Assembly: GCF_900113525.1 (NCBI RefSeq)
Contig: NZ_FOPP01000006.1
Location: 124,001 to 188,000 of the forward strand
Length of the DNA: 64,000 nucleotides
Direction of reading: 5' to 3'
DNA from: Pedobacter insulae
Lineage (GTDB): Bacteria > Bacteroidota > Bacteroidia > Sphingobacteriales > Sphingobacteriaceae
Shown: piece after piece, positions 2,803 to 28,984 of the stretch
Layout: each line of letters starts with the position of its first letter
How positions within the stretch are numbered: the first letter of the stretch is position 1
Notes under the pieces: model-generated
Told to the model about the DNA's origin: nothing
The model's database searches: none
The model's input: the letters and a program-made list of their open reading frames with translations, nothing else
Translations under genes and position numbers: made by a program

Positions 2803-3180
2803 TTACTTAATCTCAACTACAGCTCCAGCTTCTTCTAATTGTTTTTTCAAAGCTTCTGCTTCGTCTTTAGCAACACCTGATTTTAATTCTTTAGGTGCAC
2901 CATCAACTAAGTCTTTCGCTTCTTTCAAACCTAAACCAGTTAAGTCTTTTACCAATTTCACAACTGCTAATTTCTGACCACCAGCTTCTTTCAAGATTAC
3001 ATCGAAAGTAGATTTTTCTTCAACTGCAGCAGCTTCGCCACCAGCAGCAGGACCTGCAACAGCAACTGCAGCTGCAGCTGGTTCGATACCATACTCGTCT
3101 TTTAAGATTTGAGCTAATTCGTTAACTTCTTTAACTGTTAAGTTTACCAATTGCTCAGCAAACGCTTTTAAATCTGCCAT
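2803..3180 (-). CDS. rplL: 50S ribosomal protein L7/L12
   Basis: This 125-residue acidic stalk protein recruits GTPase factors to the ribosome. It shows the N-terminal dimerisation helix ([19 protein letters not shown]), an Ala/Gly/Val-rich hinge around residues 35-55, and the conserved C-terminal domain with [19 protein letters not shown] and [16 protein letters not shown]. Length and domain order are normal. It follows rplJ by 63 bases, and two hairpins separate it from rpoB. Confidence 0.98.
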
Positions 3181-3243
3181 TTTATTAAGATTTTAAAAAT
3201 TTACGTAATAATAATTTTGTTTAATTCGAACTTAAGGTGTCCG

Positions 3244-26591: not shown

Positions 26592-28154
26592 TTACTTAGC
26601 AAATGCTACCGATCTAGTTTCTCTAATTACCGTCACCTTAATCTGACCCGGATAAGTCATTTCAGTTTGGATACGGGTAGAGATATCAGCTGCCAATAAT
26701 TCTGCTTGCTGATCGCTAATGCGTTCGCTTTCTACGATTACACGTAGTTCCCTACCAGCCTGAATAGCAAAAGTTTTTTCAACTCCTGGATAAGATAAAG
26801 CCAGTTCTTCTAATTCTTTTAAGCGTTTGATATAACTTTCTACAACTTCACGTCTAGCACCTGGCCTAGCACCAGAAATTGAATCGCATGCCTGGATAAT
26901 TGGCGAAATCATAGAGGTCATCTCGATCTCGTCATGGTGAGCTCCAATCGCATTACAAATTTCCGGATGTTCCTTATATTTTTCAGCTAATTGCATACCT
27001 AAAATTGCGTGTGGTAATTCGGGATTATCATCAGGCACTTTACCTATATCGTGTAATAATCCTGCACGTTTAGCCATTTTAGCATTTAAACCGAGCTCGG
27101 CTGCCATGGTTGCGCAGAAATTTGCAACCTCACGAGAGTGATGTAGCAAATTTTGTCCGTAGGATGAACGGTAACGCATACGACCCACCATTCTAATTAA
27201 CTCGGGATGCAGCCCATGAATTCCTAAATCAATTACAGTACGTTCACCGATTTCTACTATTTCGTCTTCAATTTGTTTTTTGGTTTTCGCTACAACCTCT
27301 TCAATACGCGCAGGATGTATCCGGCCATCGGTTACCAAACGGTGTAATGCCAAGCGGGCAATTTCTCTCCTAACTGGATCAAAACCAGACAAGATAATCG
27401 CTTCCGGGGTATCGTCTACAATAATCTCAATACCAGTCGCAGCTTCTAACGCACGGATGTTTCTTCCTTCTCTTCCAATTACGCGTCCTTTGATCTCGTC
27501 ATTATCGATGTGAAAAATTGATACTGAATTCTCAATAGCGGCCTCTGCAGCTGTACGTTGAATGGTTTGGATAACAACTTTTTTAGCCTCTTTGCTTGCG
27601 GTGAGCTTGGCTTCATCAACAATATCTTTAACCTGCATCATTGCTTGAGAACGCGCTTCACTTTTCATGTTCTCAACCAATTGGTTTTTAGCTTCTTCAG
27701 CGCTTAAACCTGCAATGGTTTCTAATTGTTGAACGTGTTGATTTTTTAGAATATCTACCTCTTCCTGTTTTTTTATGGCAACTGCAGTCTGTTTCTCCAA
27801 ATTAGCCTTATGATTATCTAATTCCTGCTCTTTACGGTTCATGTTCTCTAATTTTTGATTTAGAGATTGTTCCTTTTGTTTAATAGAGTTTTCGCGTTGG
27901 TTGACTTCATTATTTCGTGAATTTACCTGTTGTTCATGCTCGGCTTTCATCTGTAAAAACTTCTCCTTCGCTTCTAAAAGCCTGTCCTTTTTTAAGATTT
28001 CTGCGTTACTTTCTGCATCTTTTAATATTTTTTTAGCTTTATTTTGAGCAGCAATTTCTTGTTGCTTAAACAAACTTCGCAAAAGGTATCTTCCTAAAAC
28101 TACGCCAATAATTAAACTGACCAGTATGCATCCTATTATTCCTAATATCTCCAT
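26592..28154 (-). CDS. rny: Ribonuclease Y
   Basis: RNase Y (520 residues) is a membrane-bound endoribonuclease that starts mRNA decay. It has an N-terminal membrane segment (residues 4-24), a long coiled coil to about residue 200, a KH domain with [19 protein letters not shown] and the HD domain with [11 protein letters not shown] and [10 protein letters not shown]. Length and order are normal. The gene follows zapA across a 217-base spacer holding a structured RNA candidate. Confidence 0.97.
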
Positions 28155-28230: not shown

Positions 28231-28339
28231 AAAAAAACCGTAACTAAATATTTATGACTCATGCCAAAAAAATCAACTGCGCATCAGGGATGGCAATTAA
28301 ATCTTCTTGTACTATTGAAACATAAAAATCTAGCCACGG
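28231..28339 (-). ncRNA. Structured small RNA candidate between zapA and rny (6S-like shape)
   Basis: On the minus strand CCGTGGCTAGATTTTTATG (28339-28321) and CATAAATATTTAGTTACGG (28256-28238) pair over 19 positions with three G-U pairs and one mismatch. They enclose 64 bases, which contain an inner TGCCA/TGGCA stem and a large asymmetric bubble on the 5' side. Seven U residues follow the stem. Closing stem, bubble, apical hairpin and terminal U-run suggest a discrete RNA of about 110 bases, the shape of 6S RNA. In gammaproteobacteria 6S RNA also lies beside zapA. The assignment is not proved; it could be an elaborate zapA terminator. Confidence 0.5.
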
Positions 28340-28371
28340 CCAAATTTCTAAACTACCTATAAAGAACGTTT

Positions 28372-28662
28372 TTATTTAGCGAAAAACTCGTTTAATAAAC
28401 TATCTAAATCTTCAACTTTTTCAGCAACTGCAGTATCCTGGTTTTGCACCTTATGTTCTGTTCTCAATACCGCTGTTGCATAATGCAACACTGCCATTGA
28501 TAGCAAATCCTGCTTATCTCTAACCGCATAATTTTCTTGGTAGTCTTTTATACGTTCATTAATAATTTTAGCAGCCCGTCTTACGATTTCTTCTTCCTCA
28601 ACATTTACCTTTAGGGGGTAAATACGGTCAGAAATAGTTATTTTAATCGAGATTTCTCCCAT
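28372..28662 (-). CDS. zapA: Cell division protein ZapA
   Basis: ZapA (96 residues) bundles FtsZ filaments at the division site. It shows the N-terminal domain ISIKITISDRIYPLKVNVEE with RRAAKIINERI and a C-terminal coiled coil. It lies 31 bases after a coiled-coil gene of equal length, suggesting a ZapA-ZapB-like pair. Confidence 0.9.
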   Translation of the reverse strand: MGEISIKITISDRIYPLKVNVEEEEIVRRAAKIINERIKDYQENYAVRDKQDLLSMAVLHYATAVLRTEHKVQNQDTAVAEKVEDLDSLLNEFFAK

Positions 28663-28693: not shown

Positions 28694-28984
28694 TTATTTT
28701 TTAAGTAACACTACGCACTTATCAATTTCACGCACAAATTCGTTAATTTTTTGCTTTATATCAAGCGTCTTTTCACTTGTTCCTTCAATACTCTTCGCTA
28801 ATTTGAGTACTCTTACTTTTTCGTCTAATTCTAAACCTTTGCTTTTTGCCAATTCCAGCGCCAGTTTTGTTTGCTTGTTTTCAACTTTCAACAACTCATT
28901 TTCTTCTTGCAATGCATTACAAAGCTCAATTAAGCGATTTGTTTTTTGCAACACATTATCTAATTGACTGGCAACAGAAGACAT
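28694..28984 (-). CDS. Coiled-coil protein, possible ZapB-like partner of ZapA
   Basis: This 96-residue protein is almost all heptad coiled coil, for example QLDNVLQKTNRLIELCNALQ and LLKVENKQTKLALELAKSK. It sits between pheT and zapA in the same direction. In many bacteria ZapA works with a short coiled-coil protein, ZapB; the similarity here is in size, form and place, not clear homology. Confidence 0.7.
   Translation of the reverse strand: MSSVASQLDNVLQKTNRLIELCNALQEENELLKVENKQTKLALELAKSKGLELDEKVRVLKLAKSIEGTSEKTLDIKQKINEFVREIDKCVVLLKK

Follow-up and report, generated by a model that had tools for sequence, protein, structure and literature searches.

A shortened RNA gene of probable 6S descent between zapA and rny in Pedobacter insulae

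6S RNA is a known brake on RNA polymerase and is among the most widespread bacterial RNAs. A hairpin encoded between zapA and rny of Pedobacter insulae had been proposed in a preliminary description, on account of its overall shape and its position beside zapA, to be a 6S or 6S-Flavo type RNA or a novel small RNA. This locus raises the question whether so short an RNA can belong to 6S RNA and, if so, what is left of the 6S function. The window analyzed here is a stretch of 64,000 nt (contig NZ_FOPP01000006.1, positions 124,001 to 188,000 of the forward strand), in which the following features are relevant (coordinates of the window; R1 is a covariance model, A1 and A2 are alignments of the long form and of form A, all described below):

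28231-28342, minus strand: reduced 6S RNA (form A), 112 nt, with a putative 5' end, from the R1 match and the fold z-score
28328-28341, minus strand: 5' arm of the terminal stem P1, from MFE and pair counts
28236-28249, minus strand: 3' arm of P1, continuing into the U tract, from MFE and pair counts
28321-28326, minus strand: 5' arm of P2, TTTATG within the near-invariant TTTTTATGTTTC, from MFE and near-invariant in A2
28251-28256, minus strand: 3' arm of P2, from MFE
28257-28316, minus strand: apical part, poorly conserved, occupying the position of the long form's P3, central bubble and apical arm, from A1 and A2
28231-28237, minus strand: U7 tract after P1, intrinsic-terminator-like, a U tract being present in 19/19 rows of A2
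28372-28662, minus strand: zapA, upstream of the RNA (Pfam PF05164, E 1.7e-17)
26592-28154, minus strand: rny (RNase Y), downstream of the RNA (Pfam PF12072, E 3.3e-44, with KH and HD)
28358-28368, minus strand: boxA-like element CGTTCTTTATA, directly after the zapA stop codon, from form-A spacers and the 16S-23S spacer

The RNA is a single long hairpin in which the 14 pairs of P1, a U-U mismatch and the 6 pairs of P2 are followed by a mostly paired apex and which ends in U7; in the MFE structure, two further G-U pairs lengthen the stem outward and consume the first two U of the tract. Most of the architecture described earlier was recovered: the 19-position stem with one mismatch (U-U) and three G-U pairs is present on the minus strand of 28339-28231, the seven terminal U residues lie at 28237-28231 of the same strand, and the flanking genes are zapA and rny by their Pfam domains. 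The asymmetric bubble exists as an internal loop but is small, as the inner part is an almost unbroken helix whose largest internal loop is 3x1 in the MFE structure. The region 28350-28215 folds at -43.2 kcal/mol, compared to -22.0 (sd 3.4) for shuffled sequences (z -6.33, 0/200 as low), and the entire zapA-rny spacer reaches a z of -4.16 (0/200), while the plus strand of 28231-28342 gives -1.40 (20/200 as low). P1 and U7 together have the make-up of an intrinsic terminator, i.e., a stable stem followed at once by a U tract; a simple terminator scan, restricted to loops of 3-8 nt, found none in the region.

The existing family models provided no direct assignment. The Infernal search suggested in the preliminary description was negative, as neither RF00013 (6S) nor RF01685 (6S-Flavo) matches the window RNA: RF00013 stayed without a match in the whole genome up to E 10, and in control searches it matched 8 of 14 known genomes, four of them above the cut-off. 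For RF01685, with more than 85 bits as the criterion, the control set gave no matches anywhere, and the same model did match nine genomes of the class. RF01693 (Bacteroidales-1; more than 60 bits) was unmatched in the spacer and, under strict filters, in the whole genome. Across the window, Rfam at gathering thresholds returned tRNAs only, and with the limit raised to E 10 the zapA-rny spacer still gave nothing relevant. Likewise, cmscan of 20 Sphingobacteriaceae loci, 11 of them with the long form described below, gave no 6S-type match at E up to 1; the other matches were judged unrelated to 6S. Among these are weak CsrC and RefA1 matches at about 3050-3200 in three loci (L045, L046, L060), past rny, which are probably simple terminator hairpins downstream of this gene.

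Compared to the features expected of 6S RNA, a terminal stem is there but the RNA measures 112 nt instead of the approximately 160-210 nt of a 6S rod, and the conserved 6S centre is missing from form A in the A1 and A2 alignments. The orthologous place and the recognizable stem, established through the models R2 and R1 and through synteny, are those of a descendant of Bacteroidota 6S RNA. Of the proposed 6S identity, locus and descent were thus retained, whereas family membership, length and the 6S centre were not.

The evidence for descent begins with the locus. RF01685 matches were obtained in 9 of 149 genomes of the class (0 above the cut-off), and for eight of the nine the site is the zapA-rny spacer, with the same orientation, the exception being L065. 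RF01693 matched 16 of 198 class genomes, five above the cut-off; only two of these 16 matches, neither above the cut-off, are in the zapA-rny spacer and 14 are elsewhere. In named loci found through Rny, zapA is located upstream in 78 of 80 cases, and the remaining two end at a contig end. Many spacers outside the family encode an RNA in which a stem encloses, in this order, AAACUCAACA, a centre and GGGGUUUA and is followed by a U tract, while others, many of them from Bacteroidales, show a short stem with a U tract alone or nothing recognizable. Ten loci of the Bacteroidales type (L198, L200, L205, L207, L209, L212, L214, L217, L219, L225) have no 6S in the spacer, often with a short stem (CCCGCA..TGCGGG or similar) and a U tract upstream of rny. 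Because RF01685 matches and spacer RNAs of the 6S plan are situated there, the zapA-rny spacer counts as one location of 6S RNA in many Bacteroidota, though not the sole one.

Several known 6S RNAs can be compared to the window RNA. In beta- and gammaproteobacteria, ssrS is reported directly after zapA (PMC7641849); the Proteobacteria RNA (RF00013) thereby shares its place just after zapA with the window RNA, but possesses the bubble and both arms and has no match in this genome. The argument from zapA in the preliminary description is therefore better than its author could know. 6S-Flavo, defined in a 2010 motif paper (PMC2864571), has the same zapA-rny place and orientation and an outer stem that runs into a U tract, whereas its ACUCAAC...GGAGUUU helix, its bubble and its apical arm are all absent from the window RNA. 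Bacteroidales-1, listed in Rfam as "suggested 6S-Bacteroidales," is matched by R2 and is therefore homologous to the spacer 6S; unlike the window RNA, it is of full length and mostly does not adjoin zapA or rny. 6S RNA and pRNAs are reported for Bacteroides thetaiotaomicron (PMC7366714), where we infer the Bacteroidales-1 family to be meant, and 6S RNA is among the RNAs reported as detected in Flavobacterium psychrophilum (PMC9723704).

Most of the Sphingobacteriaceae spacers that were read contain an RNA of 160-180 nt (about 170 nt), termed the long form or form B. In A1, an alignment of 39 of the 55 distinct long forms, it exhibits a strongly conserved run TTTCACTATTTTAAACTTAACRCTTCAATAT with ATACATGA opposite. 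The P1/P2 stem covaries, with 30 cells of two-sided change against 8.3 in shuffles (0/500 as high), and 95.8% of cells pair compared to 30-45% with the partner slid. From the collection of spacer RNAs, seven spacers whose stem escaped the pattern (L005, L008, L082, L083, L092, L102, L124) and one lacking an end (L108) were dropped, and two others (L048, L111) were wrongly trimmed; L119, admitted to the long set through a loose pattern, was excluded from A1. In six long-form Pedobacter loci (L082, L083, L152, L153, L155, L160), an additional sequence that resembles a small repeat element (GTCACTCTGAACTTGTTTCAG... and its variants) separates the 6S stem from the boxA-like motif.

Two covariance models connect the window RNA to 6S. 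R2 was built from A4, i.e., 19 zapA-rny spacer RNAs from outside the family, 17 of them from named or class loci; its search sources were 67 hand-picked loci, two other hand-picked source sets comprising 64 and 87 loci. R2 matches 6S-type RNAs away from this locus, namely L065 and the Bacteroidales-1 loci L226-L231 (E 6e-11 to 3e-4), and matches L210, whose sequence reads as a bridge between both kinds, at E 1e-14. It also matches all 29 Sphingobacteriaceae long forms given to it at their exact spacer positions, with rough E-values of 3e-6 to 0.24 (18 under 0.01, 22 under 0.05). As R2 finds the long forms, we conclude that the Sphingobacteriaceae long form is of 6S descent. R1 was built from A1, with no form A in it, and matches the window RNA with 50.2 bits at E 3.8e-6, the only hit in the genome under E 1 (the next has E 2.9). 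This match covers P1 and P2, and the centre is absent. R2 itself scores the window RNA at only 12.6 bits (E 2.4), and only two of the 12 short-form sources given to it, the window and L104, have even a weak spacer match, with no other form-A or form-C spacer among its hits. These results count against any direct claim of the window RNA being 6S; the link is an indirect one via the long form, based on P1/P2 and position. Taken as such a chain, the descent of the window RNA from a 6S gene is well supported.

Searches with R1, R2 and RF00013 revealed no second copy elsewhere in the genome, the R2 genome search having no control. Over 87 sense sequences (the 127 rows of A3 minus 40 antisense), 95.7% of cells pair (shuffles: 86%) and two-sided changes are seen in 12 of 17 pairs, in an alignment fitted to the model and against shuffles that ignore relatedness. 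R1 matched 10 of 295 class genomes, all Sphingobacteriaceae; this search, with strict filters and nine candidates scored per genome, says little on absence elsewhere. A BLAST search with the spacer DNA in 201 family genomes gave mostly partial matches, and the route via Rny and ZapA led to the spacers better.

Within Pedobacter, R1 matches 86 of 99 genomes, 67 with at least 127 bits (long) and 19 with 36-54 bits (short). Under strict filters and with 28 candidates scored per genome, no more than one full-length hit appears in any of the 99, and no such hit in the 19 short-form genomes. Ten of the 13 genomes missed by R1 have a short form in the spacer (L032, L036, L038, L040, L042, L043, L047, L049, L055, L088), and the other three (G218, G229, G259) have no rny match or a partial one only. 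The ten best long hits, compared by eye, all precede rny by about 14-145 nt. In G211, a 6S that seemed to lie off the locus was traced to a contig break, since zapA lies just before the RNA and the contig with rny breaks off 54 nt ahead of this gene.

As row counts are not independent, the Rny protein tree (69 rows) is the better unit for counting events. Form A, including the window, is one clade (16 rows, 100/99), form C is another (10 rows, 95/90), and both stand beside long-form Pedobacter; the fork joining form C to its long-form neighbors has 92/92 and carries no star. Another seven rows (O) are short or degenerate forms that require at least three changes on starred branches. The long form is taken as ancestral because it is common to other genera and, as 6S, to other orders. 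On this tree, Pedobacter has shortened its 6S gene twice, in forms A and C. At one pair of P1, 49 of 50 long forms have C-G and 18 of 18 form-A rows have U-A, and among the eight form-C rows with letters on both sides seven have U-G, a pattern that points to compensatory change of the stem between forms.

What form A has lost is the inner part of the RNA: CTTAACRCTTCAATAT and P3 are absent from A2, the form-A alignment of 19 rows. Loop size in the MFE structures is no guide to the form, the largest internal loop having a median of 10 nt in long and short forms alike, and the loss of the bubble therefore rests on the missing conserved sequence and on length. What it has kept is nearly invariant. 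The two arms are 0.92 and 0.95 identical pairwise, compared to 0.45 upstream, 0.42 in the apical part and 0.47 downstream, in 100 of 171 pairs and with arms picked by pattern, which inflates likeness; third positions of shared ZapA codons are 0.55 identical. The same stretches of invariant columns are visible in the arms in A2, whose rows were aligned with MAFFT. Because the arms hardly vary, covariation within form A is weak, with two-sided changes in one of 21 pairs (148/500 shuffles as high) and a score exceeded by 3/500. The covariation that the preliminary description had asked for is therefore present in P1/P2 at family level and faint inside form A.

A second element is retained next to zapA. 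GTTCTT occurs within the initial 60 nt in 143 of 185 spacers, compared to 4 of 638 control windows taken from the remaining spacer sequence, and the genome's own 16S-23S rRNA spacer carries GTTCTTTGACATA, with which the zapA-rny motif shares the core GTTCTTT. From this seven-letter match and the boxA consensus sequences of E. coli and Bacillus, we take the motif to resemble boxA, the Nus-factor antitermination signal. It shares its core with the boxA of rRNA operons and, unlike the latter, precedes a 6S locus, as a putative Nus-factor site. Outside the family, 19 of 23 spacers with 6S contain it (GTTCTT in 17, GCTCTTT in two; L061, L064, L201 and L203 are without), compared to 0 of 18 spacers without 6S, the assignment being made by reading the spacers and two of the 18 (L173, L190) belonging to the family or lying near it. 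The motif therefore goes with the 6S gene and not with zapA. Inside the family it is found in 83 of 88 form-B spacers (slightly low, as L119 and L178 are still counted as form B), 20 of 21 of form A, 2 of 12 of form C and 7 of 15 others. Its decay in form C but not in form A suggests that the predicted form-A transcript may still count. None of the 185 spacers contains the Bacteroidota promoter motif TTG...TAnnTTTG, and the TAnnTTTG part by itself is present in 18, fewer than in shuffles (mean about 41); no promoter can therefore be named.

Taken together, we consider it fairly probable that form A is a 6S gene cut down to a boxA-like signal and a terminator stem, which would have ceased to be a polymerase decoy and probably now serves as a transcript boundary between zapA and rny. 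The ancestor would have been the long form of about 160-180 nt, built, like 6S RNA in general, from the terminal stem P1/P2, P3 as downstream helix, a centre and an apical arm. The window's branch would have swapped all that lies inside P2 for a short variable hairpin, leaving an RNA presumably unable to present the open-promoter mimic that traps RNA polymerase. The kept parts would be the boxA-like signal past the zapA stop codon and the terminal stem with its U tract. Nus factors bound to the former may take the polymerase across the untranslated stretch, and the latter may release it or let a fraction read on into rny, which would be fed by this read-through or by an unseen promoter; a small RNA would be left over as a product.

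The proposed loss of polymerase trapping relies on work on other 6S RNAs, in which the terminal stem is reported to be dispensable for polymerase complex formation, the helix next to the bubble to touch beta and beta', and the central bubble with two short arms to suffice for the 6S cycle (PMC8876501). As form A keeps the dispensable stem and is without the needed centre, we infer by analogy that it would no longer trap polymerase. It could instead be a working 6S-type regulator, acting via the stem and a small loop near P2, or a new small RNA with another target. Form A strictly keeps motif and arms where the independently shortened form C lost the motif, and truncations of B. subtilis 6S-1 to 78 and 82 nt are reported to still cycle on polymerase (PMC8876501). 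These truncations, however, retain the central bubble, while form A retains the stem without the bubble sequence, and the largest internal loop in 19 form-A folds amounts to 14 nt in all, so that we regard such a regulator as unlikely.

The reading as a zapA transcript boundary draws on the terminator make-up and on the start of rny, which follows the U tract after 12-14 nt in 12 of 20 form-A spacers. The same spacing would suit an rny leader that sets the RNase Y level whatever its origin, e.g., as an autoregulatory cleavage site, and RNase Y of B. subtilis is reported to autoregulate its own mRNA (PMC10303841). In the window, however, 76 nt lie between U tract and rny start, the distance in form C likewise exceeds 12-14 nt, and other families have a 6S-type RNA in the same place, which alone does not therefore point to rny; a leader function appears decidedly improbable. 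An ordinary, chance-born intrinsic terminator unrelated to 6S could likewise present a stem with U7, and 6S-less Bacteroidales spacers do show short stems with U tracts, but with the R1 match at E 3.8e-6 as sole genome hit under E 1, the C-G to U-A change between forms and the retained boxA-like motif it merits hardly any credence.

Under the favored reading of a reduced 6S gene serving as a boundary, one point is left over: the near-invariant arms exceed the needs of a plain terminator, which leaves room for a further role. A more far-reaching version, which we put forward tentatively and consider rather doubtful, is that 6S was rebuilt in one branch as a boxA-armed, near-invariant and bubble-less stem controlling polymerase at zapA/rny, with classical 6S dropped branch-wide and boxA general to the making of 6S in the phylum.

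In full-text literature searches, 6S RNA together with Pedobacter yielded the 2010 motif paper only (PMC2864571). Those for 6S RNA with Bacteroidetes and zapA yielded the EVE paper only, those for 6S RNA with boxA and NusB nothing, and a centre-less 6S gene retaining boxA and stem was not found in them. The Sphingobacteriaceae long forms may have been predicted earlier, by Wehner et al. in 2014. The present analysis places a 6S gene in Sphingobacteriaceae loci where Rfam models had none, and it shows the linkage of zapA and 6S outside Proteobacteria. Natural lineages seemingly without the polymerase-binding centre of 6S would make life without 6S testable in close relatives, and a boxA-like signal that tracks the 6S gene suggests how a long untranslated RNA gets transcribed to its end.

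Two minor observations concern the surroundings of the RNA. In nine form-C Pedobacter loci (L046, L048, L049, L054-L059), a further stretch resembling a hairpin (GCATGAGCA...TGTTTATGC) lies downstream of the RNA and ahead of rny; TATATATAAATTAAAATG comes after it and may represent the promoter region of rny. Immediately upstream of zapA in the window, at 28694-28984 of the minus strand, an ORF of 96 aa without a Pfam match has a coiled-coil-like look and may encode a ZapB-like partner.
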